From assembly GCA_018822435.1 (NCBI GenBank), contig JAHJKD010000040.1, positions 1 to 42,860 on the forward strand: a stretch of DNA of 42,860 bases, in the 5' to 3' direction. The position numbers and the translations under genes are program-made. Below are positions 3,934 through 24,377 of the stretch, piece by piece. The DNA is from Patescibacteria group bacterium. GTDB taxonomy: Bacteria; Patescibacteriota; Patescibacteriia; UBA9570; JAHJKD01. Each line of letters begins with the position of its first letter. Position 1 is the stretch's first letter. The notes beneath the pieces were generated by a model, which searched no databases, was not told the DNA's origin, and saw only the letters and a program-made list of their open reading frames with translations.

Positions 3934-4464
3934 TCAATTAATTTTATTAATAATTTGTTTGCCAGCGTCATCCATGGTACGACCGAGAGAAAAAAAGCCA
4001 TGGTTCTTGGCAATAAGAAAATTGGTTTTCTCGGCCAAATCAGCGACTGAATCAGCCAGCTCCAGAGTGCCATAAGGATATTCTTTATCTGTCACAGGAA
4101 CATTAGGGATATCAAGCGTATGGCCATGGAAAACTGCATTAATTTTACCAATTTTTTGGTATATTTTCAAATGTAAAAAGGCCTCTGAAGATGGCTCTTT
4201 AATGCCTTTTGCCTGGATCTCTTTTTTCTCCTCATTAAAACCAGTAACTTCAACTAAATCATAGATGGTCGCTTTGCCAAGATCCGTGCCCGTGCCTGTG
4301 ATTATGCAGCCGTTTTCCGTGCGAAAGCTAAGATTACCCGAGGTGCCCTCGTTATATTTCGCGAGAACATAACACCAATTTAAAAGCTCCTTAGCCTGAT
4401 CTGACTTAGGAACCTCCTTTTTTAAGAAACTGGTTGTAAATTTAGGGCCTGTATCTTCTTCCAT
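3934..4464 (-). CDS. Class II aldolase/adducin-family protein
   Basis: ORF; GTSGNLSFRTENGCIITGTGTDLGKA, EPSSEAFLHLKIYQK, AVFHGHTLD, FLIAKNHGFFSLGRTMDDA. Confidence 0.9.
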   Translation of the reverse strand: MEEDTGPKFTTSFLKKEVPKSDQAKELLNWCYVLAKYNEGTSGNLSFRTENGCIITGTGTDLGKATIYDLVEVTGFNEEKKEIQAKGIKEPSSEAFLHLKIYQKIGKINAVFHGHTLDIPNVPVTDKEYPYGTLELADSVADLAEKTNFLIAKNHGFFSLGRTMDDAGKQIINKIN

Positions 4465-5474
4465 GATGGTTTAATAATGCCTTGTTCAGTTATTATGCCG
4501 GCGACTAATTTGGCCGGGGTGACATCAAACGCAATGTTAACGGCATGACTGCCATGATTTGCAATTCTAATGCCATCTATTTCTAAAACTTCTTTTTCAT
4601 CTCTCTCTTCTATGGGAATGTCTTTTCCTGATTTGCAGGTAATATCAATTGTTGAGGTCGGGGCGGCCACATAAAATGGCACGCCGTGGGCTTTGGCCAT
4701 GGTAGCCAGAGTGTAAGTGCCGATCTTGTTAGCCACATCCCCATTTCTGGCAATCCGGTCGGAACCAACAATACACATATCTATAAGCCCTCTTTGCATG
4801 AGGGCGCCAGTGGTATTATCGCAAACAATTTTATGGGGAATTTTATTGTGGAATAATTCCCAGGCGGTAAGTTTTGCCCCTTGCAGTCTTGGCCTGGTCT
4901 CATCTGCATAAACAAAGACTTTCTTTTTCTGTTTCATTTTTGCCCAGTAGATTGGTGAAAGGGCTGAGCCCCAGTCTACAAAAGCCAGCCAGCCAGCATT
5001 ACAATGCGTAGAAATATTATATCCGCTTTTAATTAATTTAGAGCCATGGCGGCCGATTCTTTCGCAGGAGTCTGAATCTTCCTGAGCAATGTCCTCCGCA
5101 ACTTCCAAGGCAACCTCTCTCGCCTTTTTAGGATCATTTTTATAATCTTTAATTGCTTCAAAAACTAAATTTGTGGCATAAAATAAATTTTGGGCAGTGG
5201 GACGGGTCGCTTCTATGTCTTTCTTGGCCTTTTGCATGAATTTATAGAAATTCTTGTCCGGCGCATTCACAGCGGCCAGAGCCATGCCGTAGCCGGCTGT
5301 TCCGCCAATGGCGCCGGCTCCCCGGGTAACCATTGTATATATAGCATTACAAACCTGTTTGTACTTTGTGTAAGTGACAATCTTAAAACGATTGGGCAAC
5401 ATGTTTTGCTCAATCATTTTTACTTTATTGGCCTGCCACCAGACAGTGCGGTAGTGTTTTCCGTTGACGATCAT
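4422..5474 (-). CDS. mtnA: S-methyl-5-thioribose-1-phosphate isomerase (eIF2B-like family)
   Basis: ORF; TRGAGAIGGTAGYGMALA, THCNAGWLAFVDWGSALSPIYWA, VYADETRPRLQGAKLTAWEL, CIVGSDRIARNGDVANKIGTYTLATMAKAHGVPFYVAAPTSTID; overlaps the aldolase start by 43 nt. Confidence 0.93.
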   Translation of the reverse strand: MIVNGKHYRTVWWQANKVKMIEQNMLPNRFKIVTYTKYKQVCNAIYTMVTRGAGAIGGTAGYGMALAAVNAPDKNFYKFMQKAKKDIEATRPTAQNLFYATNLVFEAIKDYKNDPKKAREVALEVAEDIAQEDSDSCERIGRHGSKLIKSGYNISTHCNAGWLAFVDWGSALSPIYWAKMKQKKKVFVYADETRPRLQGAKLTAWELFHNKIPHKIVCDNTTGALMQRGLIDMCIVGSDRIARNGDVANKIGTYTLATMAKAHGVPFYVAAPTSTIDITCKSGKDIPIEERDEKEVLEIDGIRIANHGSHAVNIAFDVTPAKLVAGIITEQGIIKPSWKKIQALNLQPVS

Positions 5475-5540: not shown

Positions 5541-7052
5541 CTAATAAATTTTCTTATTATAACAGCCGTCACAATATATTTGACCCTTAGGATACGGTGT
5601 TATTAGTTTAATGCCACAGTCAGCACATTTGCGATCATAAAGATTACGTTCGCCTGCACGCAGATTGCGATTTTTATGGCGGCATTCTGGACATAGTTTA
5701 GGTTCAGGCAGATCTAAACGATTATAAAATTCTTTTTCTTGTGAGATTATTTTGAATTGTCTCTTGCAGTCTTGGCAGACTGGAAGACTGTCTTGAAGGC
5801 GGGTGTCATGATGGCGAGCATGGTGATGTCCGCTTTCAAAATAATATTCTGAAGCTACAGTCTCATGATATTTAAAACCAGATGTGCCTTGAGGAAAAAA
5901 TTGACCATATTCACCTGTTCTAATCATGTGCTTGATTATCTTGTCCTTTAACGTAGAATATTCAGACTCAGAATACTTCTTATTAAGAATTACATACTCC
6001 CCTTTCATAATGCCAATTGAACCAAAACAATCATGTGAATTATTGCATTTGTCGCAGTATTCCATGTGATGGCAATAATGCGAGGCATTGCAGAATTTGC
6101 TTTCCACCATATTCAGAGTGCTAATTAATTCTAACGAGTGTTCAGGTTTGTATAAACTGAAATTCAAATCATAACAATCTTTGGCATCAAGCACGTCCCA
6201 GAGCCATTTGGAATTTTCGCAATTAACTACATCAAAACAATCAGGGCAATTTTTTGAATTGGTAATATCATTGCCCGTACAGTTTTCGGAGTTGGTTTGG
6301 TAGGATGATTTTACGATTGGCTTGAGGCGGATGTGGTGACATCCGCTTCCAATTTTTTTATTAAATTCATCTTTAGAAACCTCCTTATTATTGATGCAAT
6401 ATTTTTTATTGCGGAGGTTGGAACAATTAATGCAATGGGAGCAACCTTTAAGATCAAAACAGCTGTGGCAATGATCACAATCAGAACAGCGATCCAGCCA
6501 AGTTGAGCCGTAGCAGTTGTGGCAGTTTACGCATTCATAACAAAGTTCAGAATTATAAGTAAATGAATTATCAACACAGTCTTTACAAAATTTTATAAAT
6601 TTCCCATATAAGCAATTTTCATTAGCCTCGCCCGCGATGTCAAAATAGCAGGACTTGTCGTCCCCGCAATACGAGACATAATTTGAATTTTCGCAATTTA
6701 CGATATCCAAAGATAAAGTTGGGACTCGCTTATACATCTCTTTGAATTGGGGAAAAAATTCGCGGCTAAAATCAAAGTTACGGCCATAATCAAACGGAGT
6801 CCATTTGTCTGAATACCAACATTCCGGGCAATAGACTACCTGGCCTGCATCAGCCGGATAATAAGCGATAATTTTTTTCTGACAACAATCACAAGTCCGT
6901 TCATAAAAAGTCCGTTCATTGCGCATGCTTAGGCGGCGCTGGTTGCGGCAGTTCGGGCACCAGGTCGGTTCAGGGACTTTAAAAGATTGATAATATTTTT
7001 TATCTTGCTTTGTAATTTCAAATGAATTTTGGCAATTCTGGCATTTATTCAT
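5541..7052 (-). CDS. Cys-rich dual zinc-ribbon protein, paralog 1 (503 aa)
   Basis: ORF; N-ribbon CQNCQNSFEITKQDKKYYQSFKVPEPTWCPNCRNQRR, CDCCQKK...YCPECW, C-ribbon CQDCKRQFKIISQEKEFYNRLDLPEPKLCPECRHKNR...KCADCG...YCDGCYNKKIY; about 46 Cys by manual count. Confidence 0.9.
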   Translation of the reverse strand: MNKCQNCQNSFEITKQDKKYYQSFKVPEPTWCPNCRNQRRLSMRNERTFYERTCDCCQKKIIAYYPADAGQVVYCPECWYSDKWTPFDYGRNFDFSREFFPQFKEMYKRVPTLSLDIVNCENSNYVSYCGDDKSCYFDIAGEANENCLYGKFIKFCKDCVDNSFTYNSELCYECVNCHNCYGSTWLDRCSDCDHCHSCFDLKGCSHCINCSNLRNKKYCINNKEVSKDEFNKKIGSGCHHIRLKPIVKSSYQTNSENCTGNDITNSKNCPDCFDVVNCENSKWLWDVLDAKDCYDLNFSLYKPEHSLELISTLNMVESKFCNASHYCHHMEYCDKCNNSHDCFGSIGIMKGEYVILNKKYSESEYSTLKDKIIKHMIRTGEYGQFFPQGTSGFKYHETVASEYYFESGHHHARHHDTRLQDSLPVCQDCKRQFKIISQEKEFYNRLDLPEPKLCPECRHKNRNLRAGERNLYDRKCADCGIKLITPYPKGQIYCDGCYNKKIY

Positions 7053-7221: not shown

Positions 7222-7767
7222 ATGATTATGGAATCAACCCAAAATTCTACCCAACAAATCCTGGAAGCTCTAAACAAAGGCTTCGAAGATCTTAAAAATG
7301 GTTTTAAAACTATGCAAAATGACATTACTTTCCTAAAGAAAGATTTCAGTGGACTGAAGAGTGACATGTCAGGCGTGAAAGAGGATGTCAGCGGACTGAA
7401 GAGTGACATGTCAGGCGTGAAAGAGGATGTCAGCGGACTGAAGAGTGACATGTCAGGCGTGAAAGATGATTTCAGTGGATTGAAGAGTGACATGTCAGGC
7501 GTGAAAGAGGATGTCAGCGGACTGAAGAGTGACAATAAATCTATTAAGGCCGGCTTAAATGATTTGAAAAAAGAAGATGAGTTGATTTTAAAATCAATTC
7601 ATGATTTTTCAGAAGATATGCAGGAAAACTTCGATGGAGTCAATTTTCGATTAGATAATTTAGAAATCGATAACATTAGGACCCATTTGCGCTTAGATAA
7701 CGTCGCCCACCGCTTTGAGCTGGAAGAACTGGAAAAGAAAGTAAGCAAAGCCAAAATTAATAATTAA
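7222..7767 (+). CDS. Coiled-coil repeat protein (181 aa)
   Basis: ORF with heptad-like (F/V)SGLKSDMSGVK(E/D)D repeats; promoter immediately upstream. Confidence 0.85.
   Translation: MIMESTQNSTQQILEALNKGFEDLKNGFKTMQNDITFLKKDFSGLKSDMSGVKEDVSGLKSDMSGVKEDVSGLKSDMSGVKDDFSGLKSDMSGVKEDVSGLKSDNKSIKAGLNDLKKEDELILKSIHDFSEDMQENFDGVNFRLDNLEIDNIRTHLRLDNVAHRFELEELEKKVSKAKINN
7345..7533 (+). repeat. 42-bp in-frame tandem repeat, about 4.5 copies
   Basis: Successive copies of ttcagtggactgaagagtgacatgtcaggcgtgaaagaggat, encoding 14-aa units. Confidence 0.95.
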
Positions 7768-10283: not shown

Positions 10284-11933
10284 TTAATATATCTCTTCCT
10301 TATAACAATCAGCGCAATAAATTTTCTCCTTCCTTTCCGGAGAATATGGACCCTTCATGTCTTTTTCACATTTATTACACTTCCTATTCCACACTTTTCT
10401 TGGCTGACGGGATTTCATTCTTTTAATATATCGGCATTCTGAGCATTCCCTGGGCACGGGAATATTCTGCTTTTTATAGAATTCTATTTCATCAGGGATC
10501 AATTTATAATTGCGGCCGCAATCCGTGCAAGCCAGAACTTCATTAATGATTTCATCTTTAATGTCTTTGATGTTATCGGGAATATCTGTGTTTTTTAACG
10601 TCTCTTTACCAAACATGCCAGGCTTATTGTCTTCCCAGTTCCAGCCATGCTTTTTAGCTTCTTCTTTAGAAACTGGCATATAAAAATTTCCGACTGTTTC
10701 ATTGTATCCGAAGGGCGATAAATCATGCGGAAAATATTCGCCGTATTCCCCTGTTTTCCTCATATGATCAATAATTTTATTTTTTAATTTTTTATAGTCT
10801 TCTTCAGAATATGTTTTATTAAAGATGCTGAAAGGATTTTTCTTTAAACAGACGCAGCCGAACAGATCATGCGAGTCATGGCAGGAATCGCAGTATTGCA
10901 GATGCTGGTTGTCGTAGGAGAAATTCGTGAACATGTTGTTATAACCGTTTGTCACGGCATGAATCTCGTAGAGCAGTTCGGAGTTAAAGCCAAAATGATA
11001 GCCGTCATAGCAGTCCTTGGCTTCCAGGGAAGACACTGTATATTTGGCATTTTCCATGTTATCAATGTCAAAACATTCGTGGCAGTTTTTTGACCGGAAA
11101 ATATGATTGCCAGTGCAGTTTTCTGAATTTTCAATAATGTTGCGATGAATGGCTTTTGTTTGCACCATTTCTTCATATTTTTTCTTCAAATTGCAGATAG
11201 TTTTAAACGAGCCGAAATCAATTTCTTTCATCTTCTTTTCATAATCCTCTTTAGAATATTCTTTATTATTTATGCAATATTCTTTATGGCGAAGATTGGA
11301 GCATAAAAAGCAATTCTTACAGCCTCTAAGATCAAATCCAAAATAACAATCAGAGCAATCAAATAATAAATTTGACCAATTGCAGTTAAAACAGTCGCGT
11401 GAAGATGTGAGTTCATATGAAACCTGGGTATTTTTATAGATATAAGTGCAGTCAAAGCAATCCTGCGAATACATCACCCAGTTGGAATAATAGATGTTTT
11501 CCGAATACCAAATCACGGAAGAAAGGTAGACATTAGTATTGTCGCCGGAATGGTTGGCGTATTCTGCATTCGTGCTGTTCTTGGAAACCAGGGCCATGCG
11601 CGGCACTTCCCTCTGGAACTCTTTGAATTGGGGGAAAAATTCATGGGTAAAATCAAAGTCGCGGCCGTACGCCAGAGGATCCCAGCGATCGCTCCACCAG
11701 CAATCCTGGCAATAAACTTTGAAGGGCTTATTAGGCGAATAGATGGAAACTGTCGGCTTCTGGCACAAGTCGCATTTTCTGTCATAAAAAACCCTTTCAT
11801 TGCGCCAGGCATATCTTCTTTGTTGGCGGCAATCAAAGCAAAGCGTAGGTTCTGGGACATCTATCCTTTTATAGAATTCCTTGTCTTCGGGATAGACCGT
11901 GAAATTATTTTGGCATTGTTTACAAACTGGCAT
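10284..11933 (-). CDS. Cys-rich dual zinc-ribbon protein, paralog 2 (549 aa)
   Basis: ORF; CKQCQNNFTVYPEDKEFYKRIDVPEPTLCFDCRQQRR...CDLCQKP...YCQDCWWSDRWDPLAYGRDFDF; C-terminal CTDCGRNYKLIPDEIEFYKKQNIPVPRECSECR...CNKCEKD...YCADCYKEEIY. Confidence 0.9.
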   Translation of the reverse strand: MPVCKQCQNNFTVYPEDKEFYKRIDVPEPTLCFDCRQQRRYAWRNERVFYDRKCDLCQKPTVSIYSPNKPFKVYCQDCWWSDRWDPLAYGRDFDFTHEFFPQFKEFQREVPRMALVSKNSTNAEYANHSGDNTNVYLSSVIWYSENIYYSNWVMYSQDCFDCTYIYKNTQVSYELTSSRDCFNCNWSNLLFDCSDCYFGFDLRGCKNCFLCSNLRHKEYCINNKEYSKEDYEKKMKEIDFGSFKTICNLKKKYEEMVQTKAIHRNIIENSENCTGNHIFRSKNCHECFDIDNMENAKYTVSSLEAKDCYDGYHFGFNSELLYEIHAVTNGYNNMFTNFSYDNQHLQYCDSCHDSHDLFGCVCLKKNPFSIFNKTYSEEDYKKLKNKIIDHMRKTGEYGEYFPHDLSPFGYNETVGNFYMPVSKEEAKKHGWNWEDNKPGMFGKETLKNTDIPDNIKDIKDEIINEVLACTDCGRNYKLIPDEIEFYKKQNIPVPRECSECRYIKRMKSRQPRKVWNRKCNKCEKDMKGPYSPERKEKIYCADCYKEEIY

Positions 11934-11957
11934 ATTTATACTGAGTTTATCGAAGTA

Positions 11958-13544
11958 TTAATAGATTTCCTTTTTATAACAATCCTCACAATAAACTATT
12001 TCCGGTTTTTCTGGGGCATAAGTCGTTTTTATTTTTGCACCGCACTTATCGCATTGCCTGTCCCATAATTTCCGGGGATTGCGACGGCTCATTCTTTCCT
12101 TATGGCGGCACTTATAACATTTTGTTGGAGTAAAAATATTATTTTCTTTGTAATACTTTTTTTCTTGAGGAATAATCTGAAAATTCTGACCGCAATCTGA
12201 GCAAACCAGCAATTTTGGATCAACTGATTTTTTATCCTCGTCTTGCCATTTATAATTTTTCTCTAGCGCTTCTTCTTTTTTTAAGGGGAATAACTCCTGG
12301 GCAGAAGTGTCATTATAAAAATACGGCGAAATAGAGGCGGGGAAAAATTCACCAAACTCCCCTTCTTCTTTCATCTTATTAATTATTTTTTCTTTTAATT
12401 TTTCATATTCGTCTTGGGAATATTTTTTATTAAGAATATAATGCTCCCCCTTGCGTATGCCTGAACAACCGAATAGATTCTTACTGCCGTCAATAAAAGT
12501 CGAATACATGATGTTTTCTGAATTAAAGACAACGTGTCCAAATTTCAGATTATGCACGGGCAGGCCGGCGCAACTGCCCTCGTATGATAATTCGATCTCG
12601 CCGCAGCCGGATATGTCATAGCATTCTTTGGTGCTGGCCGGAAAATTGATCAGCCATTTTGAATTTTCCCCTTTTTCACCGTCAAAAATATCCTGGCAAT
12701 GGCTGCAATTCTTAATGCCGTCGCCGGTCGAATTTTCACAATTGATCTGATGGGCAAACTTGCGGGGAAATTTCATGGAAAATTCAAAAAATTTATTTTT
12801 TTGTTTTTCAAATCCAGCCTGGTCTGACATTATTTTTTCAACTTTTTCTTTATATTTATCAGGAGATAATTTTTTATTAAAAAAATGGTATTCTTCATTA
12901 ATCAAATTAGCGCAGCCAAAGCAATTCTTGCAATTTTTTAATCCGTATCCAAAAATACAATCCGTACAATCTTTGGATTGTTGTAAATATTGGCAATTGA
13001 ATAAATTATCACAATCTAAACAGCCATAGCATAATTCACATTCTCGGAGGTATGAACAGTCCATACAATCTTTAGAATGCCAGATATAATCGCTGTACAT
13101 GATATTCTCCAGCCAGTTGGCCGCAAACACCAGATAACAGTCCTTGGCATGAGAAACAAAATTTACATAATCGCAATTTTCGTTCGTTTCCCTAATATTT
13201 GTCAGATTAAAAATAGGCACTTCTTTTTGCAAGGCGTCAAAATTTTCAAAAAAGGGCTTATTAAAATCATAATCACGGCCATAAGAAGCAGGATCCCATT
13301 TGTCCGACCACCAACAATCCTGGCAATAAACAGTATATAAAGAATCGTCAGGCAATGTAGAAATCATGTCTTTTTTACATAATCTACATTTAGCCTGATA
13401 TAAGGTTTTTTCATTACGCCAACTAAGTCTTCTTTGGAAGCGACAGTCTGGACAATGAGTTGGCTCAGGCACTTCAATCCGTTGATAAAATTCTTTATCT
13501 TCAGGGTAGATAGTGAATTGTTGGCCGCAGTTAGTACACTTCAT
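11958..13544 (-). CDS. Cys-rich dual zinc-ribbon protein, paralog 3 (~528 aa)
   Basis: ORF; starts MKCTNCGQQFTIYPEDKEFYQRIEVPEPTHCPDCRFQRR (Met at 13544 preferred over 13562); ends YCEDCYKKEIY. Confidence 0.9.
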   Translation of the reverse strand: MKCTNCGQQFTIYPEDKEFYQRIEVPEPTHCPDCRFQRRLSWRNEKTLYQAKCRLCKKDMISTLPDDSLYTVYCQDCWWSDKWDPASYGRDYDFNKPFFENFDALQKEVPIFNLTNIRETNENCDYVNFVSHAKDCYLVFAANWLENIMYSDYIWHSKDCMDCSYLRECELCYGCLDCDNLFNCQYLQQSKDCTDCIFGYGLKNCKNCFGCANLINEEYHFFNKKLSPDKYKEKVEKIMSDQAGFEKQKNKFFEFSMKFPRKFAHQINCENSTGDGIKNCSHCQDIFDGEKGENSKWLINFPASTKECYDISGCGEIELSYEGSCAGLPVHNLKFGHVVFNSENIMYSTFIDGSKNLFGCSGIRKGEHYILNKKYSQDEYEKLKEKIINKMKEEGEFGEFFPASISPYFYNDTSAQELFPLKKEEALEKNYKWQDEDKKSVDPKLLVCSDCGQNFQIIPQEKKYYKENNIFTPTKCYKCRHKERMSRRNPRKLWDRQCDKCGAKIKTTYAPEKPEIVYCEDCYKKEIY

Positions 13545-15120
13545 TCTTAAAGCATTTATCACAATAGATGTCTCCGGTCTTGGCCGATGTTAATGTCATT
13601 TTATGGCAATTAACACACTTTCTTTTAAAGATCTCTGGCGGGGTGCGCTTCGCCTGCCGGGCTTTGTGCCGGCAATCCGGGCATAGTTCTGGTTTGGGTA
13701 GATTATTCTTTTCCAGAAACTCCTTTTCTTGTTTAATGACCTGAATATTTTTTCCGCATTCTTTACATTTAGTAAGATTATCCTGGGCAGGCGGTTCTGA
13801 TTTTTCGTACCATCCAAATCCTTGCTTTTCTGCCTCTTTTTTAGTTAATGGGTAGTAATCAGTCGCAATTGTTTCATTATAACCATAATCAGATAATTCA
13901 CGGGGAAAGAATCGGCCATACTCGCCTGTTTTTTTCATATAATCGATTATTTTGGCTTTCAGATCTTTATATTCTTGCTTTGAGTATTGCTTATTAAGAA
14001 TACAATATTGATTTTTATTCAGACCGACGCAGCCAAAACAATCTTTGGCGGCATTACACATAATGCAATATTCCAGATGGCTGGAGTCGGTCATGCAATG
14101 ATGGCAGAATTTAAGGTCATAAACATTATTGCCGCAGGAGTTGCATTCAAAAAGCAATTCGGCCCGGTCGCCCCAGGAATTATGGTCCATACAGGACTTC
14201 ACTTCTTTAAAAAGCCTGGTACAATACCGGCAATTATCCAGGTCTTCACTGTCAAAACACATATAAGCATTCTTTGAATTATAGAGATAATTTCCAAGAG
14301 AGTTTTCGTTTCTTTCCACTTGCAGATTTCTTCGAGGCTGTGTTTTTACTAATTCTTCAAATTGTTTTTTAATTTTTTCCAGACCTTCCCTTGTTTCCAG
14401 ATGCATTGCTTTTATTTTTTTATCATACTCATCCTTAGAATATTGCTTATTGAAGACCTTGTATTTAGCGTAGCGCTGGTTCACGCAGCCAATGCAATTC
14501 TGGCAGGAACGGCAGTCCAGCAGGAAATAACTGTCAGTGGAACTTTTTGTATCCTGGCTGAATTTGACGTTAAAGCATTCATTGCAGTCTATGCATTCAT
14601 AACAGAGCTCGCATTTGAAAATGACTGAACAATCAATGCAATTTTTGGAATAAAAAAGCCGATTGGAGAAGTAGCAGTCCTCGTTATAATCAGCCTCACC
14701 AACTAAATAACAATTCTTACAATAACCGGCGCAATTAGTGAATTCAGAATTTTCCATAGTGCCGGAAATGATGTAGCGCGACATATGCGGCACAACATCG
14801 GCCAATTCTTTAATCTGGTCAAAAAAATCGCGGTTAAAGTCAAAATCGCGGCCATAATCGAGGACATCCCATTGGTCGGAAAACCAAACATCAGTATCGT
14901 AAACAGGGAAAGGCTGTTTCGGATTGTATTGAGAAATTATTTCTTTCCCGGAAAAATCGCATTTTCTTTTATATAAGCTTTTAGCATTTCGGAATGCCAG
15001 ACGTGTCTTTAAGCGGCATTTTGGGCAGAATATCGGATCAGGGACCTGAAACATGTCATAGAATTCCCGGTCCTCATTTTTTATTTCAAAGTCTTTTTCG
15101 CATTGCTGGCATTTTTGCAT
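13531..15120 (-). CDS. Cys-rich dual zinc-ribbon protein, paralog 4 (529 aa)
   Basis: ORF; MQKCQQCEKDFEIKNEDREFYDMFQVPDPIFCPKCRLKTR...; ends YCDKCFKNEVY; 3' end overlaps the next gene start. Confidence 0.9.
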   Translation of the reverse strand: MQKCQQCEKDFEIKNEDREFYDMFQVPDPIFCPKCRLKTRLAFRNAKSLYKRKCDFSGKEIISQYNPKQPFPVYDTDVWFSDQWDVLDYGRDFDFNRDFFDQIKELADVVPHMSRYIISGTMENSEFTNCAGYCKNCYLVGEADYNEDCYFSNRLFYSKNCIDCSVIFKCELCYECIDCNECFNVKFSQDTKSSTDSYFLLDCRSCQNCIGCVNQRYAKYKVFNKQYSKDEYDKKIKAMHLETREGLEKIKKQFEELVKTQPRRNLQVERNENSLGNYLYNSKNAYMCFDSEDLDNCRYCTRLFKEVKSCMDHNSWGDRAELLFECNSCGNNVYDLKFCHHCMTDSSHLEYCIMCNAAKDCFGCVGLNKNQYCILNKQYSKQEYKDLKAKIIDYMKKTGEYGRFFPRELSDYGYNETIATDYYPLTKKEAEKQGFGWYEKSEPPAQDNLTKCKECGKNIQVIKQEKEFLEKNNLPKPELCPDCRHKARQAKRTPPEIFKRKCVNCHKMTLTSAKTGDIYCDKCFKNEVY

Positions 15121-15122
15121 AT

Positions 15123-16841
15123 CTATTTTTCCGGGGGGCTTGCCTCGCCGGAGTCTGATCCAGGCGAAGGCGGGCCGTTTTGTTTATAAGTAATTTCCTT
15201 GCGATAACATTGGTCACAATAAACAATATCAGGTTTTTCCGGTGGATAAGTGCAGAGGATGATCTTGCCGCAACAGGCGCATTCCCGCTCCCAGAAACGA
15301 TGCGGACTCCTCAACTTCAATCTGTCTTTATGACGGCAATCAGGGCATTTTCTTGGTATAGGCAAATGGAATTTTTTATAAAAATGAACTTCTTCCTGTA
15401 AAATCTGATAATTTTTTTCGCAATCCTCGCAATAAAGGACTTCGTCAATAATATCTTCTTTGACATCCTGAATTTTATCAGCCAGGTCTTTTACATCAAT
15501 CGTTTCCTCGCCTTTATGAAGAGGTTTTAAATCGCGCCAGAATAGATCATTTCCGAGAATCTCCTTTTTTTCCATAGGAAAATAATCCTGAGCAATTGTA
15601 ACGTTATAACAAAAAGGAGAGTTTTTCATGGGAAAAAATTCACCCCACTCGCCTGTTTCTTTCATATGGCCGATGATCTTGGCAGTCATTTTATCATAAT
15701 CTTGTTTCAGGTATTTCTTGTTCAGGATCATGAATTTATTACGTTTAACTCCAATGCAGCCGAAAAGATTTTTTGCGCTCAGACAAATATCAGAATAAGT
15801 TATATTGGAACAGCATTCAGAATTAACGGAAAAACGGGCATCAAAGCATTCCTCAACACCAACGGATTCGTAACACTTTTCCGAAGAACCGACGCCATAA
15901 ACATCATAGCAGTCTTTGGCGCGGAAAATCCAAGATGAGTAAGCGCAATTTTTCAATTCAAATCCGTCAAAGATTTGATAAGCTCCGACTGAATTATAAA
16001 GATTATTGCCAAGAGATTTTTCGCAGCCTTTCATCCACAAACATTTTCGAGGATAGTCTAAAACGAATCTCAAGAAGCGGTCAAACATATCTTGCAAAGC
16101 AGAAAAGCCATAGCCCTCATATTCTTTTTTAAATTTTTCATACGCTTCCTTTGAATAAGGTTTATTGAAAATATGATATTTTTTCTTACGCAGTCCTACA
16201 CAAGCGATGCAGTCCTCACATTCATTGGCGTCATAAAGGAAATGAGAATTCTTGCAATGGCGACTTTTTTTTGCAAAAGTACAGGAATCCATTTCAAAAC
16301 AATCGATGCATTCATAGCAATTATGCGAATCAAACATAAATTCAGAATCAAAGGTATTTCGTACTCGGATAGCATTAGAGGTAAAGAAGGAATCTTCTGA
16401 ATCACGGATGCCAAAACAGAGATAGCAGTTTTTATTGTAGTAGGCCTGGTTAGTAAATTCACTATCAACTGAATCGGTATTAAATAAATTCAAACGAGGT
16501 ACTTTTTTCCTAAGCTCAAGAAACTGATCAAAAAAAGGTTTTTTAAAATCAAATTCCTGGGCATAGTCAGATGCACTCCATTTTTCAGACATCCAGCAAT
16601 CATAGCAATAGACCGGAGACCAGCAATCCTTATGATAAATTGATATGATTTCTTTTTCGCAGCAATCACATGCCCTAAGATGAAGAGTCCGTTCATTGCG
16701 ATATGTCATCCGCCTTTGCTCACGACACTCCGGACAATGAGTTGGATCAGGGACATTTGTTTTATCGTAAAAGGCAGCGTCAGCTGCCCTTATTATAAAA
16801 TCTACCCCACAATGATTGCATTTAATGCTTTTGTCCGTCAT
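15123..16841 (-). CDS. Cys-rich dual zinc-ribbon protein, paralog 5 (572 aa)
   Basis: ORF; CNHCGVDFIIRAADAAFYDKTNVPDPTHCPECREQRR...; C-terminal CEDCEKNYQILQEEVHFYKKFHLPIPRKCPDCRHKDR...YCDQCYRKEITY. Confidence 0.9.
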   Translation of the reverse strand: MTDKSIKCNHCGVDFIIRAADAAFYDKTNVPDPTHCPECREQRRMTYRNERTLHLRACDCCEKEIISIYHKDCWSPVYCYDCWMSEKWSASDYAQEFDFKKPFFDQFLELRKKVPRLNLFNTDSVDSEFTNQAYYNKNCYLCFGIRDSEDSFFTSNAIRVRNTFDSEFMFDSHNCYECIDCFEMDSCTFAKKSRHCKNSHFLYDANECEDCIACVGLRKKKYHIFNKPYSKEAYEKFKKEYEGYGFSALQDMFDRFLRFVLDYPRKCLWMKGCEKSLGNNLYNSVGAYQIFDGFELKNCAYSSWIFRAKDCYDVYGVGSSEKCYESVGVEECFDARFSVNSECCSNITYSDICLSAKNLFGCIGVKRNKFMILNKKYLKQDYDKMTAKIIGHMKETGEWGEFFPMKNSPFCYNVTIAQDYFPMEKKEILGNDLFWRDLKPLHKGEETIDVKDLADKIQDVKEDIIDEVLYCEDCEKNYQILQEEVHFYKKFHLPIPRKCPDCRHKDRLKLRSPHRFWERECACCGKIILCTYPPEKPDIVYCDQCYRKEITYKQNGPPSPGSDSGEASPPEK

Positions 16842-16882: not shown

Positions 16883-18835
16883 TTAAAGCATATCTTGTAA
16901 AGAGACTTTGGTTTTATTCTTATTTTGAGATGATTTTTGCGGCTGAGGTTTGGCTGCTTGTTTTGGTTGCCGGCTTTGCGGCTGTGGCTGAGGTCTTGGC
17001 ATTGGTTTTTGCGGCTGAGGTTTTGATTGTGGTGTAGGCTTAGATCTAGTTTGATTTTTAGGCGGCTCTTTAGTTGCCTGAGGTTCTTGCTGTTTTGCTG
17101 GTTGCGGCTGGGATTTAATTTTCTCTTTTAGTGGCCGGACAAAATTAATACCTTTGTTCGAAGCGGCCGGTTTTCGTTCTTGTTGAGGTTGAGGCTGTAC
17201 TTCTGCTTTGGGCTGGGCTTGTGGTTGAGCCTTGCCAAAATATGTTGTCTGATCAAAAATATTTTCTAATGAAGTTTCTTTTGGCGTGGATTTAACTTCT
17301 TTTTTAATTTCTTCTTTCTCTTCCATTTTTTGAATTTGCTTAGGTGTGGGGGCTTGTTTTTTTTGTTTAGGTTGAGCTTTAGATCGAGGTTGGGCCTGAC
17401 CTAACGATACGGGTAAATCTGAAATTTCCTTAATTTCTCTTTGCGGTTGAGGCTGGGCTTTAGATATAGCCTGGGCTGGTTTTGCAGTTTCCTTGGCCTG
17501 GAGTTTGTCTTTAGGCGGAACATCATCATTATCTTTGGCTTTTGAAGAAGTTTGCATTTCAACCCCGCTCCATCTTAGGATGCGATCCTCAACAATGGCA
17601 CGAGGTTTAGCGAATCGTTCCCGGGAAACACGAATTATTTTTTCGTCATTGCCCACGCCGCCAGTGGCCGGAGGAAGACCGATAGCGGAAAATGGGGAAG
17701 ATGAAACACCATTAATCATTAATTTGAGGAAAAAATTATATTTTTCAATATTAACCAGGTTCTGAGCAGTAAAAGCCGGAGCCATTTCTTTTTCCAACTC
17801 TTCAGCATCATTAGCGCCCACTCGAAATGCTATCATGGTGCCGACGTTGCCAAATACAGCCGCGCGTACTTCATCCGATAGTTGTTCAATATATTGATGG
17901 GCCAGAACAAGGCTTAAACGATATTTTCTGGCCTCTGATAAAATATTGGCAAAAGCTTCTGTGGCAAAATTTTGAAATTCATCTACATACAGATAAAAGT
18001 CGCGTCTTTCTTCTTCGGGAACGTCAACGCGGGACATGGCTGCCAACTGGATCTTAGTAATCATCATCGCGCCAAGCAAGGCAGAATTTTCTTCACCAAC
18101 TCTTCCCTTAGAAAGGTTCATGATTAATATCTTACCTTCATCCATGATTTCACGCGGATCAAATGAACTTTTTGACTGGCCAACTATATTTCTAATAATA
18201 GAAGATGCAATAAACTGCCCAACCTTGTTCTGGATCGGAGCAATGGCTTCCGTTCTGAATTTTTCAGAATAATTAGAAAATTCATCTGTCCAGAAAGTTT
18301 TCACAACCGGATCAGTTACTTTGGATACGACCTTTTTTCTGTAAGTCTTGTCAACAAGCATTCGCATAAGACCAAGTAACGTAGCACCAGGATACTCAAT
18401 TAAAGCAAGAATGGTATTAGTTAAAATATATTCCATACGGGGCCCCCAGGAATCAGCCCAAATTTTCTTGAAGACTCCAACCAGTCCGTAGGCGATCAAA
18501 TGCTTATAATCAGGATTGATATTTTCTAGAATATTAAAGGCAACTGGATTTTCAATATCAGCCGGATTAAAATAAATGACATCGTTGGTTCTTTCCGGAG
18601 GAATGAATTTGATGATCTTTTCCGCCAAGTCACCATGCGGGTCAACAATAGCCAGGCCATTACCTTTTCTAATGTCGTCAATAACCATATTTTCAATCAT
18701 GGTGGACTTGCCCATACCGGTCTTACCAACAATATAAGCATGGCGGCGGCGATCATCCTGCATAATGCCAAATTTACGCCGCTGATTGCGATAATTTGTT
18801 TCTCCGAAAATTGTTATTTCCTTATTATCTTCCAT
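16883..18835 (-). CDS. Type IV secretion / VirD4-TraG-like P-loop ATPase with Q/P-rich C-terminal tail
   Basis: ORF; VGKTGMGKSTMIENMVIDDIRKGNGLAIVDPHGDLAEKII, KILIMNLSKGRVGEENSALLGAMM, RRDFYLYVDEFQNFATEAFANILSEARKYRLSLVLAHQYIEQL. Confidence 0.92.
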   Translation of the reverse strand: MEDNKEITIFGETNYRNQRRKFGIMQDDRRRHAYIVGKTGMGKSTMIENMVIDDIRKGNGLAIVDPHGDLAEKIIKFIPPERTNDVIYFNPADIENPVAFNILENINPDYKHLIAYGLVGVFKKIWADSWGPRMEYILTNTILALIEYPGATLLGLMRMLVDKTYRKKVVSKVTDPVVKTFWTDEFSNYSEKFRTEAIAPIQNKVGQFIASSIIRNIVGQSKSSFDPREIMDEGKILIMNLSKGRVGEENSALLGAMMITKIQLAAMSRVDVPEEERRDFYLYVDEFQNFATEAFANILSEARKYRLSLVLAHQYIEQLSDEVRAAVFGNVGTMIAFRVGANDAEELEKEMAPAFTAQNLVNIEKYNFFLKLMINGVSSSPFSAIGLPPATGGVGNDEKIIRVSRERFAKPRAIVEDRILRWSGVEMQTSSKAKDNDDVPPKDKLQAKETAKPAQAISKAQPQPQREIKEISDLPVSLGQAQPRSKAQPKQKKQAPTPKQIQKMEEKEEIKKEVKSTPKETSLENIFDQTTYFGKAQPQAQPKAEVQPQPQQERKPAASNKGINFVRPLKEKIKSQPQPAKQQEPQATKEPPKNQTRSKPTPQSKPQPQKPMPRPQPQPQSRQPKQAAKPQPQKSSQNKNKTKVSLQDML

Positions 18836-18842
18836 ATATATA

Positions 18843-20468
18843 TTATACTACAGGCAAGTTAGGTGGTGGAGCCCCTGCGTTTTTATTTTGCTCCTGGGGT
18901 TGGGGTTGGGCCTGAGGTTGAGCCGGCGGGGCTTGCACAGGCAAAGGAGGTTGAGCCGGCGGAATTTGTTCGGGTAGAGGTTGGGGGAAAGCGGAAACCG
19001 GAATGCCAGTAACAACATTATCGGGAATTTTTTCCTGATGCTGTTCTTCGATGACTTCCGGCGGTTCAGCGCCTTCTTCTACGGGGATGGGAATTTCATT
19101 TCCCGCGTTAATATTAAGCTGGAACGGAGGTTCAACACGCTTGGTTTCAGCCATAGTGACAAAAGGTGCGCGGACTTCAAGAACTGGGAAATGGTAAAGG
19201 GAGGCCAGTTCATCCACGGCGTAAATGTGTCCAAAATTCTCTCCTCTTTGCCAGTCGCGGATCTTATAGGCGCGCAAGATTTTAATCTGCCGCCTTTTAA
19301 CGCGGTATTTCGGAAAAATATATTCCGCCCCGTAAAAGGGGTAGTTCTGAATATTGATCTGCGTGCGCACGCCCGGATCAAGCCAGTTCGGACCGTTAAA
19401 CTGATCCAGGGCGCCAAGCATGGCACGGCGGCCTTTAAATTCATCAAAGAGGTCTGTTCGGGCGACATATACAAATCTTATCTTGGCTTTATGGATTACC
19501 TGGGAATTCTTACTATCGACAGCCGTAACCAAGTCTTGTTCCGGCTTTACGAGGTAAAGGCTCTTATCCATCGTGTCGCCTACCTGGGCATCGCTTGTGG
19601 CCGGCCCGAAGACCTGTTCGCCGGCTATTTCCAGAGTCTTGATAGGCGCGTCCATAACATGGTCAAGAACGCTCTTTTTAGCCGCATAAGTCTTGCCGTA
19701 AAGCTTGTCCCGGCTGGCCACCTTAAGGATGAACTTATTAGCCTTGATTTTGAAGTTCTGCCATTCTTTAGGATGGAGCGGGGTAATCAGGATCTGATAC
19801 CAAAATTGTTCGCCTGGCTCAAGCCGGCTCATGACTTCCAATATCCCAGCCATCGGATCGATATAGCGACCCGTCAACTGATGTTCAAATCTGTCGTAAG
19901 TCTTAATCGGATACCAGTCGTCAAAACGAAGCTGCATTTCTGCGCCCCAAATTTTAACTTTTTTCTTCTCGATCATTTCCGGCGTAATATCCTTGGCATA
20001 ATCTTCCACTTCCACGATTTCCGCATCCGGATATTGGGCATAAATGGCCGACTCGATCAGATCCCGGAAATATTCCGGCGTATGAACATAAAAACTGATC
20101 GAACCGTTGATTGAGGCGATCTCAAAACTGAAACTTTCCTGTATCCAGCCGTCCCACCAGGCTTCGGTAAAGGTCGGCGTATTGGCCGCGCCCTTCAATG
20201 CGACAAATATCTTTTCCACCGCTTTCATGCTTTGCTCATTTTCCTTGGGAATGCTCAATTTAAGTACGACATATTTTCGAATTCTTTTTTGCCTTTCCAT
20301 AATATAGCGCTTCCAGCCGGTAATGCCATAAACTACTATGATAATAAAGACAATAAAAACTCCTCCATTCAGGAAGAGGAATAAAAAAACTGATAAAGGA
20401 TTGCCTCCAAAGGAAATCAGAAAACTCTGTAAATCGAAGTATTGTAAGTTAAAAAAATCCGGCATCAA
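18843..20468 (-). CDS. Membrane protein, predicted partner of the adjacent ATPase (541 aa)
   Basis: ORF; N-terminal TM segment (FLFLNGGVFIVFIIIVVYGITG), large soluble domain, Q/P-rich C-terminus; 7-nt gap to the ATPase start. Confidence 0.85.
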   Translation of the reverse strand: MMPDFFNLQYFDLQSFLISFGGNPLSVFLFLFLNGGVFIVFIIIVVYGITGWKRYIMERQKRIRKYVVLKLSIPKENEQSMKAVEKIFVALKGAANTPTFTEAWWDGWIQESFSFEIASINGSISFYVHTPEYFRDLIESAIYAQYPDAEIVEVEDYAKDITPEMIEKKKVKIWGAEMQLRFDDWYPIKTYDRFEHQLTGRYIDPMAGILEVMSRLEPGEQFWYQILITPLHPKEWQNFKIKANKFILKVASRDKLYGKTYAAKKSVLDHVMDAPIKTLEIAGEQVFGPATSDAQVGDTMDKSLYLVKPEQDLVTAVDSKNSQVIHKAKIRFVYVARTDLFDEFKGRRAMLGALDQFNGPNWLDPGVRTQINIQNYPFYGAEYIFPKYRVKRRQIKILRAYKIRDWQRGENFGHIYAVDELASLYHFPVLEVRAPFVTMAETKRVEPPFQLNINAGNEIPIPVEEGAEPPEVIEEQHQEKIPDNVVTGIPVSAFPQPLPEQIPPAQPPLPVQAPPAQPQAQPQPQEQNKNAGAPPPNLPVV

Positions 20469-20489: not shown

Positions 20490-21671
20490 TTACTTGTCCT
20501 CTTCAGTATCAGAAATAGGAGCTTCAGCAGGCTTAACTTCCTGCTCGGCAATAGCATATCTTCCATCAGATAACTTATTAAACTTTTTCTTATTAGTTAA
20601 AGCAAGATGGATAGTATTTTTCTTAACGATTCTCTGGTCGAGAACACGCTTAACTATTTCATTTCTGGTCAGAGGTTCACTGGCTTTTTCCAGAACTTCG
20701 GTAATAACATCAGCCACAACGCCGCGCTTGTAACCCCATTCGGTCAATGCATAAATTCCCCGGCCCACTAAAACATACTCTTTATTAAGAATAAGTTCAT
20801 TGTGAACTGTGGGCGGATATGCTTTTTTCTTGAATACTTCGGTTATGCGTCCGGCAATGTCAACAAAATGCATGGGTTTGCCTTCTTTCTTTAAAATAAG
20901 ATAGATCTTATCATTCATGCGTTTTGGCACGACTGAACCCCAAGATGATAAACCATATTCATCAAAAGGATTCCTGGCAATTGCCTGGCTAACCTCCATG
21001 AAAGAACCAAGGACATCTTCTGTTATTTGTTCTTTGTATTGATTATAAAAGTCAGTAGTCATGAATAATTCAAAGATTCTTTCCAGTGATTGAGGCTTTT
21101 CATCATTATTAAGTTCGCCTTTAACAACTTCAATGACTTTATCAAGGAAATCTATTTGGGTTAATTTCATTTTCCAGCTTAAACGATATCGCTTACTATT
21201 TGGGACCTTTTCAAACCGGTCTCCAAGCAATTCAGATAAAATAAAGAGAATGGCTCTTTCATTGGCAGGGGTGTGGCTAGTCATAAAAACCTCTTTCATT
21301 AAGAAGTTCTGCTCGCAGACGCCACCGTTTTGAGAAAGAATAGTGGTAATAACATGCTCAGCATTTTTTACTAGGTCCTGAAAATCACTAGCTTCCTTGA
21401 TCTTCTTAATTGAAAGGTTCTCGATCTGACGAATCCTTTCACGGGTGACATTATAATAATTGCCAATCGCTTCGAGGGTTTGTTTATCATGTTCATTAAG
21501 ACCAAAACGCCTTTTAAGCACGTCAGCTTCTTTTGAAGTTAATTTTCGCAGTAATAATGATATTAGTTCCTGCGGATTAAATTCACTTTTTTCAGATTCC
21601 TCCTTTGATTCGATAACTTTGTCTAAAATTGATGGGGTTTGTGTATTTTGATCACTCATATATTGCGCCAA
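20490..21671 (-). CDS. Sigma-70 region 4-like HTH protein with two HARE-HTH-like domains
   Basis: ORF; LTSKEADVLKRRFGLNEHDKQTLEAIGNYYNVTRERIRQIENLSIKKIKE, then two winged-helix repeats (DKIYLILKKEGKPMHFVDIAGRI... and DVITEVLEKASEPLTRNEIVKRVLDQRIVKKNTIHLALTNKKKFNKLSDGRYAI). Confidence 0.85.
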   Translation of the reverse strand: MAQYMSDQNTQTPSILDKVIESKEESEKSEFNPQELISLLLRKLTSKEADVLKRRFGLNEHDKQTLEAIGNYYNVTRERIRQIENLSIKKIKEASDFQDLVKNAEHVITTILSQNGGVCEQNFLMKEVFMTSHTPANERAILFILSELLGDRFEKVPNSKRYRLSWKMKLTQIDFLDKVIEVVKGELNNDEKPQSLERIFELFMTTDFYNQYKEQITEDVLGSFMEVSQAIARNPFDEYGLSSWGSVVPKRMNDKIYLILKKEGKPMHFVDIAGRITEVFKKKAYPPTVHNELILNKEYVLVGRGIYALTEWGYKRGVVADVITEVLEKASEPLTRNEIVKRVLDQRIVKKNTIHLALTNKKKFNKLSDGRYAIAEQEVKPAEAPISDTEEDK

Positions 21672-21817: not shown

Positions 21818-22702
21818 TTACCTCTTCAGAACCTTTGCTCCCCAAAGGAGGAGTGGTGAAGCAATAAATATTGAAGAATATGTACCAGTAATAATACCAA
21901 CCATTAATGCAAGGACAAAATATTTGATTGTTTCCCCGCCAAACAGGAATAATGCAGCCAGAACAAACAATGTAGTAAGGGAAGTATTTAGAGATCTGGT
22001 GATTGTGTGGTTAACAGCTTCGTTAACAACGCCTTCAAATGTATCTTGATGAGATGTTTTCAGCCCTTCCCTAATCCTATCAAAAACAACAATGGTATCG
22101 TTTACAGAATACCCGAGCACGGTCAATATAGCTGTAATAAACATGATATTTAATTCCACACCGAAGAAATGGCCGATAATCAAGAATACGCCCAATGTAA
22201 TAATAACGTCATGAGCTAGAGCGCCTAAGGCAGCCACACCGTACATCCAAGATGGAACCGGGCCCTTGCTAACACCACGGAAAGCCCAAGACAGATATCC
22301 GACAATGCCAATGAGGACTAGTAATATGGCGATCCATGATTTTCTTTTTAATTCTTCACCTATGACGGGTCCGATAGATTCAAAGCTTTGTTCCTCTGCT
22401 CCGGGTAAAGCTTCCATAACTTCCTGCCTCTGTTCGTTTGATATAAATCCCATTTTCAAGATAATACCGTTGTCCCCTGTTGTCTGGATATTAGCTTCGC
22501 CAAGATCTGGAACTGATGATGCTTGCTCCTCAACTTCTTCCACGCTAGGACGGCCATCTGGATATTCCACATACAAGAGTGAACCACCTGTGAAATCTAT
22601 CCCTAAATTAAAGCCATACATAATTGCCGCCACTAAAGTTACCGCAATGAGGGCCATGGATATGGAGAACCAAATTTTTCGGGTTTTGATAATATTATAC
22701 AT
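21818..22702 (-). CDS. secF: Protein translocase subunit SecF
   Basis: ORF; FNLGIDFTGGSLLYVEY, LGYSVNDTIVVFDRIREGLK, NEAVNHTITRSLNTSLTTLFVLAALFLFGG. Confidence 0.96.
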   Translation of the reverse strand: MYNIIKTRKIWFSISMALIAVTLVAAIMYGFNLGIDFTGGSLLYVEYPDGRPSVEEVEEQASSVPDLGEANIQTTGDNGIILKMGFISNEQRQEVMEALPGAEEQSFESIGPVIGEELKRKSWIAILLVLIGIVGYLSWAFRGVSKGPVPSWMYGVAALGALAHDVIITLGVFLIIGHFFGVELNIMFITAILTVLGYSVNDTIVVFDRIREGLKTSHQDTFEGVVNEAVNHTITRSLNTSLTTLFVLAALFLFGGETIKYFVLALMVGIITGTYSSIFIASPLLLWGAKVLKR

Positions 22703-24377
22703 CTTCTTTGTCCTCCGAATTTACATTGGCGCAACCATACCACCAAAGGCTCTTTGTAGAAATTATTTTTAACAATGTCCGGGTAATGATAATAGCAGAA
22801 AACATTGAAACCAGAATACCGATAGCCAGGGTAATAGCAAAGCCCTGAATTAATGATGTGCCCATCCAAGCCAATATTAAACATGTAATTAGTGTAGAAA
22901 TATTTGAATCTCTGATAGATGTCCAGGCGCGCTTAAAACCGTCGTCTATGGCCAGGCTAACTGGCTTCTTGTTTCGCAGCTCTTCTTTCATTCTTTCAAA
23001 AATAAGCACGTTTGCATCTACCGCCATACCGATAGATATTATAAAACCGGCGACACCTGCCAATGTCAAAGTGACCGGCCATAATTTAAATATCGCCAAA
23101 ACTACTAATCCGTATATAAATAAAGCAATGACTGCAATAACGCCGGGCAGTCTATAATAAAGGATAATAAACAAAGATAAGATAACGAGTCCGATTAAAC
23201 CGGCAAGTAAGGATTTTTCAATTGATTCCTGGCCTAAAGTCGGGCCGATATTTCTTTGGTTGATCAACTCGATAGGCACGGGCAAGGCACCGGCATTTAG
23301 GCGCTGGGCTAAAGTTTTGGCTTCTTCCAGAGTGTCATCACCTGTGATTACTGCACTTCCGTCCCGAATAGGCTCGTTAACCACGGGGGTGGAAATTGGG
23401 GAACCATCAAGATATATAGCCACTGTCTTGCCGACATTCCTTTCAGTGATTTCGGCAAACAAATCTTTTCCTTCATCGTCAAAGGTCAGATTTACTTGCG
23501 GTAAATTGGTTTGCGGATCAAATACAACTTCTGAACCTTTTAACTGTTTTCCTGATAAACCAGTATTTACATATTCCGGAGCGAGCATTTGCGGTTCGTC
23601 CGGAACTTTTAACATTAATATATGAGAAGCTACGGCCACATCATTGCCTTCTTCGTCCTGCCTTAATTCATCTACTTTAATAATATGATAGCCAAAGACT
23701 GTCTCCACTACTTCAGGATAAACCTGCCCGACTTCGGCTTTTTCAAAAACTACTTCTTCAAATTCAGCAATAGTCTCCCCTCTTCTGATCTCACCCAAAG
23801 CCCCGCCTTCTGTAGCCGAGCCGGGATCCTGGGATTTTTCCGTGGCTAAAACAGCAAAGTCTTCACCAGCTAAGGCTTGATCTAAGACCTCCTGGGCTAA
23901 TTTCTTATTTTCTATATTTTGCTCTTCTATCTCGGCCTTTTCCTCTTCTGTATATTCTTTAGGCTCACCTTCTTCTTTGAATTCTAATAAAGGAGTTTCG
24001 CCGATTTCATTTACAGCTTCATTTACATCTTCTATGCCAGGTAATTCCACGTTTACTCTCCAGGTGTCTCCATATTTTGTGGTTTGGACTAAAGGTTCAG
24101 AAACGCCAAAAGCATTGACTCTTCGTTCAATCACATCTCTTACGCCTTCCATTGCTTCTTCCTTTTCTTCATTAGGGATTTCAGTCAGGTCGGCTTCATA
24201 TAATAAAGCGGTTCCGCCCTGGAGATCCAAGCCCAAATGGACTTTGATTTGGCGCTTTAATTCCCCGCCCCAGGAAATATCCGGACCCTGGGGAATATCA
24301 ACCATTAAGGCAAAACCTGCCAAAACTAAAATACCCAAAAGGGTAAGCCATAATTTTCCTCTAGCTGATAGGTTCAT
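22695..24377 (-). CDS. secD: Protein translocase subunit SecD with inserted parvulin (PpiC-type) rotamase segment
   Basis: ORF; HLGLDLQGGTALLYE, RRVNAFGVSEP, ELPGI, LAQRLNAGALPVPIEL, GPTLGQESIEKSLLAGLIGL, GMAVDANVLIFERMKEEL; insert GEDFAVLATEKSQDPGSATEGGALGEIRRGETIAEFEEVVFEKAEVGQVYPEVVETVFGYHIIKVDE. Confidence 0.96.
   Translation of the reverse strand: MNLSARGKLWLTLLGILVLAGFALMVDIPQGPDISWGGELKRQIKVHLGLDLQGGTALLYEADLTEIPNEEKEEAMEGVRDVIERRVNAFGVSEPLVQTTKYGDTWRVNVELPGIEDVNEAVNEIGETPLLEFKEEGEPKEYTEEEKAEIEEQNIENKKLAQEVLDQALAGEDFAVLATEKSQDPGSATEGGALGEIRRGETIAEFEEVVFEKAEVGQVYPEVVETVFGYHIIKVDELRQDEEGNDVAVASHILMLKVPDEPQMLAPEYVNTGLSGKQLKGSEVVFDPQTNLPQVNLTFDDEGKDLFAEITERNVGKTVAIYLDGSPISTPVVNEPIRDGSAVITGDDTLEEAKTLAQRLNAGALPVPIELINQRNIGPTLGQESIEKSLLAGLIGLVILSLFIILYYRLPGVIAVIALFIYGLVVLAIFKLWPVTLTLAGVAGFIISIGMAVDANVLIFERMKEELRNKKPVSLAIDDGFKRAWTSIRDSNISTLITCLILAWMGTSLIQGFAITLAIGILVSMFSAIIITRTLLKIISTKSLWWYGCANVNSEDKEDV

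Follow-up and report, generated by a model that had tools for sequence, protein, structure and literature searches.

Tandemly arrayed zinc-ribbon beta-solenoid proteins of Patescibacteria and their genetic coupling to VirD4/HerA-like ATPases

A 42,860-nt stretch of DNA from a Patescibacteria group bacterium (contig JAHJKD010000040.1, hereafter the window) contains a run of Cys-rich genes that a preliminary description recognized as diverged paralogues of obscure function. What do these proteins look like, how long have they been diverging, and with which partner might they act?

The array and its shared architecture

The array comprises four minus-strand genes, defined by their open reading frames and by alignment. 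In transcription order these are paralogue 1 (15123..16841, 572 aa), paralogue 2 (13531..15120, 529 aa), paralogue 3 (11958..13562, 534 aa from a GTG codon, overlapping paralogue 2; the internal ATG used in the preliminary description gives 528 aa at 11958-13544) and paralogue 4 (10284..11933, 549 aa). The ORF list bears out the co-directional arrangement first described, with a spacing of 2 nt, an overlap and a spacing of 24 nt. A fifth copy on the same strand (paralogue 5; 5541..7052, 503 aa), on the far side of pckA and of the radical SAM gene, is indeed homologous end to end with the other four. All five align over their full length, with 37-41% identity to the 549-aa copy used as reference and ~80 invariant columns. 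The sequence motifs quoted previously are present in the proteins, although "giant" overstates products of 503-572 aa. The source genome (1.32 Mb, 63 contigs) has 12 family copies, five in the window and seven on a second contig, C10, where one copy is cut by the contig end. Since a chosen set of 37 array-bearing genomes has 1-23 matches each, in addition to these 12 copies, the array is not a product of chance.

Paralogue 4 was modeled by AlphaFold from a 120-sequence alignment (pLDDT 93, pTM 0.91). The model runs through a ribbon pair, a short helix, two beta-solenoid halves with helical caps, a linker and a second ribbon pair. The N-terminal double ribbon spans residues 1-98 (11640..11933), with Cys 4/7/32/35 and 54/57/75/78; the first solenoid half and its cap, delimited by DSSP of the model, span residues 112-262 (11148..11600), the second half and its cap residues 263-396 (10746..11147), and the C-terminal double ribbon residues 467-549 (10287..10535), all on the minus strand. 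Both modeled halves are built of short strands, frequently spaced by 12 residues. Hydrophobicity along the core peaks at lag 12, a height that none of 2000 shuffles equaled. By hhalign, solenoid half 1 is homologous to half 2 (probability 99.9, E=7.6e-36), and the N-terminal ribbon pair is homologous to the C-terminal pair (probability 99.8, E=1.8e-30). Each protein is thus built as R-S-S'-R', with homologous pairs of treble-clef ribbons (R and R') on either side of a duplicated beta-solenoid (S and S'). The preliminary description correctly noted a core rich in Cys, Asn and aromatic residues; it missed that this core is two homologous beta-solenoid halves and that the ribbon ends are homologous to each other. 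Its term "dual zinc ribbon" named the ribbons properly and understated their number, as both ends carry a pair of Cys4 sites, giving four per protein.

These sites are unevenly preserved. The first and second N-terminal sites (N1 and N2) are intact in 93% and 50% of family members, and the C-terminal sites (C1 and C2) in 70% and 98%; paralogue 2 (13531-15120) has lost three Cys of its second N-terminal site, which now reads C,S,D,V. Each protein contains 35-46 Cys, with Cys present in >50% of members at only ~15 core positions. With so few of these positions conserved, the abundance of Cys in the core does not obviously point to metal binding. Mean entropy was 2.2-2.4 bits in the solenoids versus 1.8 in the ribbons and 1.4 in cap 2. 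Variability is highest in the two solenoid halves and cap 1, and conservation is strongest in cap 2. N372, in half 2 of paralogue 4, is invariant in the 120-sequence alignment.

The terminal treble-clef ribbons are zf_Tbcl-type domains, as had been surmised from their appearance, and both Pfam matches and superposition support the assignment. zf_Tbcl (PF13451, cut-off 24 bits) scored 32.2, 37.0 and 37.3 bits in three of the five paralogues and 23.3 and 20.2 bits, just under the cut-off, in the other two; E-values were 2.6e-9 for paralogue 1 (two stretches), 3.3e-9 for paralogue 3 and 1e-7 for paralogue 5. Two paralogues matched zf_Tbcl_2 (PF23477) below its cut-off. In a viral structure library, good superposition was obtained for the ribbons only (43 residues, rmsd 0.7 Å). 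zf_Tbcl accounts for <50 residues at the protein ends and not for the full length. The models of zf_Tbcl, zf_Tbcl_2 and TIGR04272 (CxxC-x17-CxxC), which the terminal ribbon pairs of the family match, span 37-48 residues and include neither the solenoid core nor the R-S-S'-R' arrangement. The suspicion that the proteins belong to no characterised full-length family has held: Pfam and NCBIfam contain none for the five, and there was no full-length fold match. No right-handed beta-helix or pentapeptide family of Pfam matched the core of any of the five at E<=1. Foldseek pointed to left-handed beta-helices of the LpxD/GlmU type (best E=7e-4, TM 0.08-0.11, rmsd 18 Å), which we rejected because the E-values are repeat-driven and TM is about 0.1. 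Pneumo_NS1, MCM_OB, WT1, LysW and Tox-ODYAM1, from Pfam and NCBIfam, all fell under curated cut-offs, and a PDB sequence search with the A2 profile recovered LIM-domain zinc fingers alone. No prior description of the family was found in the open-access papers searched. The model and alignments thus provide a structure-level description for an unannotated protein family.

Distribution and age of the family

Full-length members were found in 27/362 genomes of the phylum sample (those common to the member search and the ATPase-profile search). Order-mates among 57 relatives carry 0-17 matches, and in these ultra-small (CPR) bacteria the family reaches roughly 20 genes in genomes of only ~0.9-1.4 Mb. 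For 111/136 members the closest homologue is in another genome (gene sampling is incomplete for some genomes), and most paralogues are therefore old. This agrees with the original proposal of long divergence rather than gene dosage, and we infer that the targets of the paralogues have diversified. Copies with internal stop codons in three genomes (G002, G004 and G209) indicate that arrays also decay.

Phage and plasmid records contained no match to the 549-aa paralogue at tblastn sensitivity; one viral-contig fragment (L106) matched. A 3.1-kb Oligoflexales contig (L059) shows the gene arrangement seen in CPR genomes and probably results from mis-binning. Stand-alone double treble-clef proteins of 129-130 aa (L108:7126-7518 and L110:7602-7991) are homologous to the C-terminal ribbons, and short matches of this kind occur in many members of the phylum, often one per genome. 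Such ~130-aa forms, L108 for example, are clear members of zf_Tbcl-type families.

Linkage to VirD4/HerA-like ATPases

Directly upstream of the array, 41 nt from paralogue 1 and on the same strand, lies a gene for a 650-aa ATPase with a Pro/Gln-rich tail (16883..18835, minus strand). It is a member of the VirD4/HerA superfamily, with matches to TrwB_AAD_bind (55.3 bits, cut-off 20.5), DUF87 (29.6, cut-off 23.2) and TraG-D_C (26.4, cut-off 22). A further 7 nt upstream, also on the minus strand, is a gene for a 541-aa protein with one N-terminal TM segment at residues 15-35 (18843..20468). Both this protein and the ATPase correspond to single-chain homologues such as the 1016-aa L117 protein: the 541-aa protein matches part of it, clustering with L117:4897-7947, and the ATPase also clusters with such homologues. 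The adjacency of ATPase and paralogue is conserved in the order, and the second array of the source genome, with its seven copies on C10, is also near such an ATPase.

The window ATPase has 2-5 matches per array-bearing genome, mostly 3-4. The surroundings of most of these yielded 116 ATPase genes from array-bearing and related genomes, of which 30 have a family gene within 3 kb. A maximum-likelihood tree was built for 111 ATPases, 31 of them linked (a family gene within 3.5 kb). A dedicated clade, mostly of 730-790 aa proteins, contains 23 linked ATPases out of 35, several of the unlinked ones being close to contig ends; the order-level lineage of the window has six out of seven, and there are two further single cases. 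Linkage was seen in 0/43 ATPases of a clade nearly all of which have a TM segment, and in 0/18 of another. The window ATPase lies outside the dedicated clade, in the second, order-specific linked lineage; the dedicated-clade ATPase of the source genome is encoded on C10, where it lies 1.6 kb from the second array in the opposite orientation. A separate sample (genome_contigs) placed 20/27 ATPases within 1 kb of a family gene, 20/20 on the same strand. Many family genes are distant from any ATPase.

The two traits also coincide across genomes. Profile A3, representing the dedicated clade, scored at least 961 bits in 25/362 genomes, all with full-length members, and the next genome scored 836; this gap is partly biased, because member-bearing genomes supplied the sequences for the profile. 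In the other two member genomes (G217 and G402), a short form of about 500 aa falls within the dedicated clade. Therefore, the clade is present in 27/27 genomes with full-length members, related genomes not being independent, with two known exceptions that lack members. These exceptions (G186 and G353) came from a tree that included ten top-scoring genomes without full-length members, eight of which fell outside the clade; genomes beyond these ten were judged by score only. Both exceptions belong to family f125, as do three member genomes. Families f114, f102 and f81 contain both states, and in them the member and ATPase traits change together. We consider the genetic coupling between family and ATPase well supported. 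The preliminary description, sound on the terminal ribbons and on paralogue divergence, had overlooked this tie as well as the TrmB-type regulators. These were found in 22/78 loci of the genome_contigs sample, where 26/28 regulator genes adjoin a family gene, 19 of them divergent from it. In three loci (L042, L074 and L124), three TrmB-type regulators are interspersed with the family genes, and most are transcribed divergently from the neighboring one.

A simpler form of the pair also exists. In 10/195 genomes of another class, a separate protein of ~230-240 aa is homologous to one solenoid half; an eleventh genome (G335) carries a fusion, and one more separate gene was found in G391. The separate gene is directly downstream of a soluble VirD4/HerA-like ATPase, on the same strand, in 11/11 genomes (L114-L116, L130, L270-L276), starting within about 26 nt of the ATPase gene end and abutting or overlapping it. 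The other flanking genes mostly differ; L115 has a Pfam TrmB gene upstream, and L273 a similar-looking gene. In the fusion, ATPase and C-terminal solenoid form one 629-aa protein. In its AlphaFold model the ATPase core, which matches HerA and TrwB, is confident, and the solenoid part is weak (mean pLDDT 65.5), with strands that recur, at low confidence, in 12-residue steps. Cys is scarce in the minimal solenoid partner (L116 type). One locus (L118) has an ATPase, a 99-aa ribbon protein and a 347-aa double solenoid as separate neighboring genes, which makes it plausible that R-S-S'-R' arose from ribbon and solenoid genes that were once separate. One clade of VirD4 homologues thereby gains a specific partner tied to it genetically; the ties include a natural fusion as well as a minimal gene pair that lends itself to biochemical work.

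Possible roles of the ATPase and its partners

The co-occurrence of family and ATPase suggests a motor-plus-adaptor machine. The reading we favor, though we put it somewhat short of probable, is that the five genes encode paralogous adaptor subunits of a VirD4/HerA-type hexameric motor. That ATPase would be the engine, and the family proteins, predicted to bind it directly, would be interchangeable substrate-selector subunits acting, we presume, in the cytosol. The conserved ribbons and NK-x-Y caps would dock on the motor, and the variable faces of the solenoids would recognise different macromolecular substrates, protein or nucleic acid, a guess prompted by their variability. In some arrays, TrmB-type regulators might choose which adaptor is made, and one motor could then serve up to about 20 substrates. 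More doubtful is the wider proposal of a CPR-specific cytosolic translocase with one VirD4/HerA-type hexameric motor and up to ~20 interchangeable adaptors, evolved from a minimal ATPase-plus-solenoid pair.

The closest functional analogy is offered by VirD4/TrwB coupling proteins with their adaptors, in which a motor works with separate selector proteins (e.g., the L. pneumophila T4CC, PDB 6sz9). The ATPases described here share their T4CP domains and fold, but the dedicated clade has no clear N-terminal membrane anchor, and the partner is a multicopy zinc-ribbon beta-solenoid protein. Hydropathy gave no clear N-terminal TM segment in 25 dedicated-clade ATPases, one being borderline (L161, residues 60-79), whereas 42/43 unlinked paralogues have a TM segment; the four minimal-form ATPases tested also lack an N-terminal one. 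For the dedicated clade, this near-constant absence points to a motor in the cytosol rather than to membrane secretion; the case is less clear for the window ATPase, given its TM partner. A PDB sequence search with profile A3 gave no match. The ATPases probably belong to the orphan VirD4 homologues of Patescibacteria, whose role is left open in PMC12102498; that paper counts 5,713 VirD4 homologues in 2,918 genomes, 148 of them near virB4, and describes them as dispensable for the epibiotic growth of one strain and as possibly exapted. The word zinc is absent from its text, in which we noted no mention of such a partner.

The membrane question bears on an alternative that we regard as unlikely, namely that the proteins are themselves substrates, either effectors or surface proteins, of a machine resembling type IV secretion, with the neighboring VirD4 homologue as coupling protein and paralogy reflecting adaptation to different host cells. 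The T4CP domains and upstream TM partner of the window ATPase fit such a machine, as do a VirB4-like match on another contig of the source genome (111.7 bits, below the family cut-off) and the presence in CPR bacteria of T4SS genes, with VirB2-like pilin arrays diversified in tandem (PMC12102498). Yet the dedicated-clade ATPases, the borderline L161 aside, show no N-terminal TM segment, whereas nearly all of the unlinked paralogues have a TM segment, and a minimal solenoid fused to, or abutting, the motor would be unusual for secreted cargo. Family proteins begin with a zinc ribbon, no signal sequence being visible, and the small share of VirD4 homologues near virB4 (148/5,713; PMC12102498) also argues against delivery.

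The adaptor reading also has to be set beside HerA-based systems. HerA-NurA, SIR2-HerA and DUF4297-HerA resemble the present pair in having a soluble HerA/VirD4-type motor beside a dedicated partner gene, and with TrwB they are among the nearest solved folds. Their partners are enzymes; the partner here has ribbons and a solenoid only, with no recognised enzymatic domain. A defence against mobile elements, in which a HerA-like motor acts with diversified sensor proteins, would account for the patchy distribution and for the differing genes around the minimal module, and PADLOC mad8 (E=2e-12 to 2e-17) and HerA models match the ATPases. We nonetheless think it improbable, as domain searches of both partners revealed no nuclease, NADase or other effector, the paralogue tested had no PADLOC match, the paralogues form long-lived subfamilies, and the phage and plasmid records searched by tblastn held no match to the 549-aa copy. 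NCBIfam HerA_antiphage scored the fusion protein (L119) at 22.3 bits (cut-off 850) and 17.6 bits (cut-off 800); the window ATPase was not listed.

Storage of metal or thiols, with the ATPase nearby by chance or through shared regulation, would suit the 35-46 Cys per protein and the well-kept N1 and C2 sites, but is very improbable given the few conserved core Cys positions (on which we judged metallothionein-like storage unlikely), an N2 site intact in only half of the family, a minimal partner with few Cys and an ATPase association repeated across many families.

Several other genes near the arrays merit description. The window has no Rfam match and no tRNA. Upstream of the 541-aa protein gene, a 393-aa protein (20490-21671, minus strand) combines Sigma70 region 4 and HARE-HTH domains, and a SecD-like protein (22695-24377, minus strand) has a match to a parvulin-type PPIase (Rotamase, residues 149-237) between its SecD N-terminal and P1 head matches. 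A plus-strand gene located between paralogue 5 and the radical SAM gene (7222-7767) encodes a coiled-coil-like protein and contains a 42-bp tandem repeat (4.6 copies, 93% matches). At 3934-5474 (minus strand), an IF-2B/eIF2B-type isomerase gene overlaps a class II aldolase-like gene, an arrangement that may represent a sugar-phosphate salvage pair. Within the second array on C10, a 617-aa protein (L121:11202-13055, genome G000) has NosD and right-handed beta-helix matches and a signal-like N-terminus.
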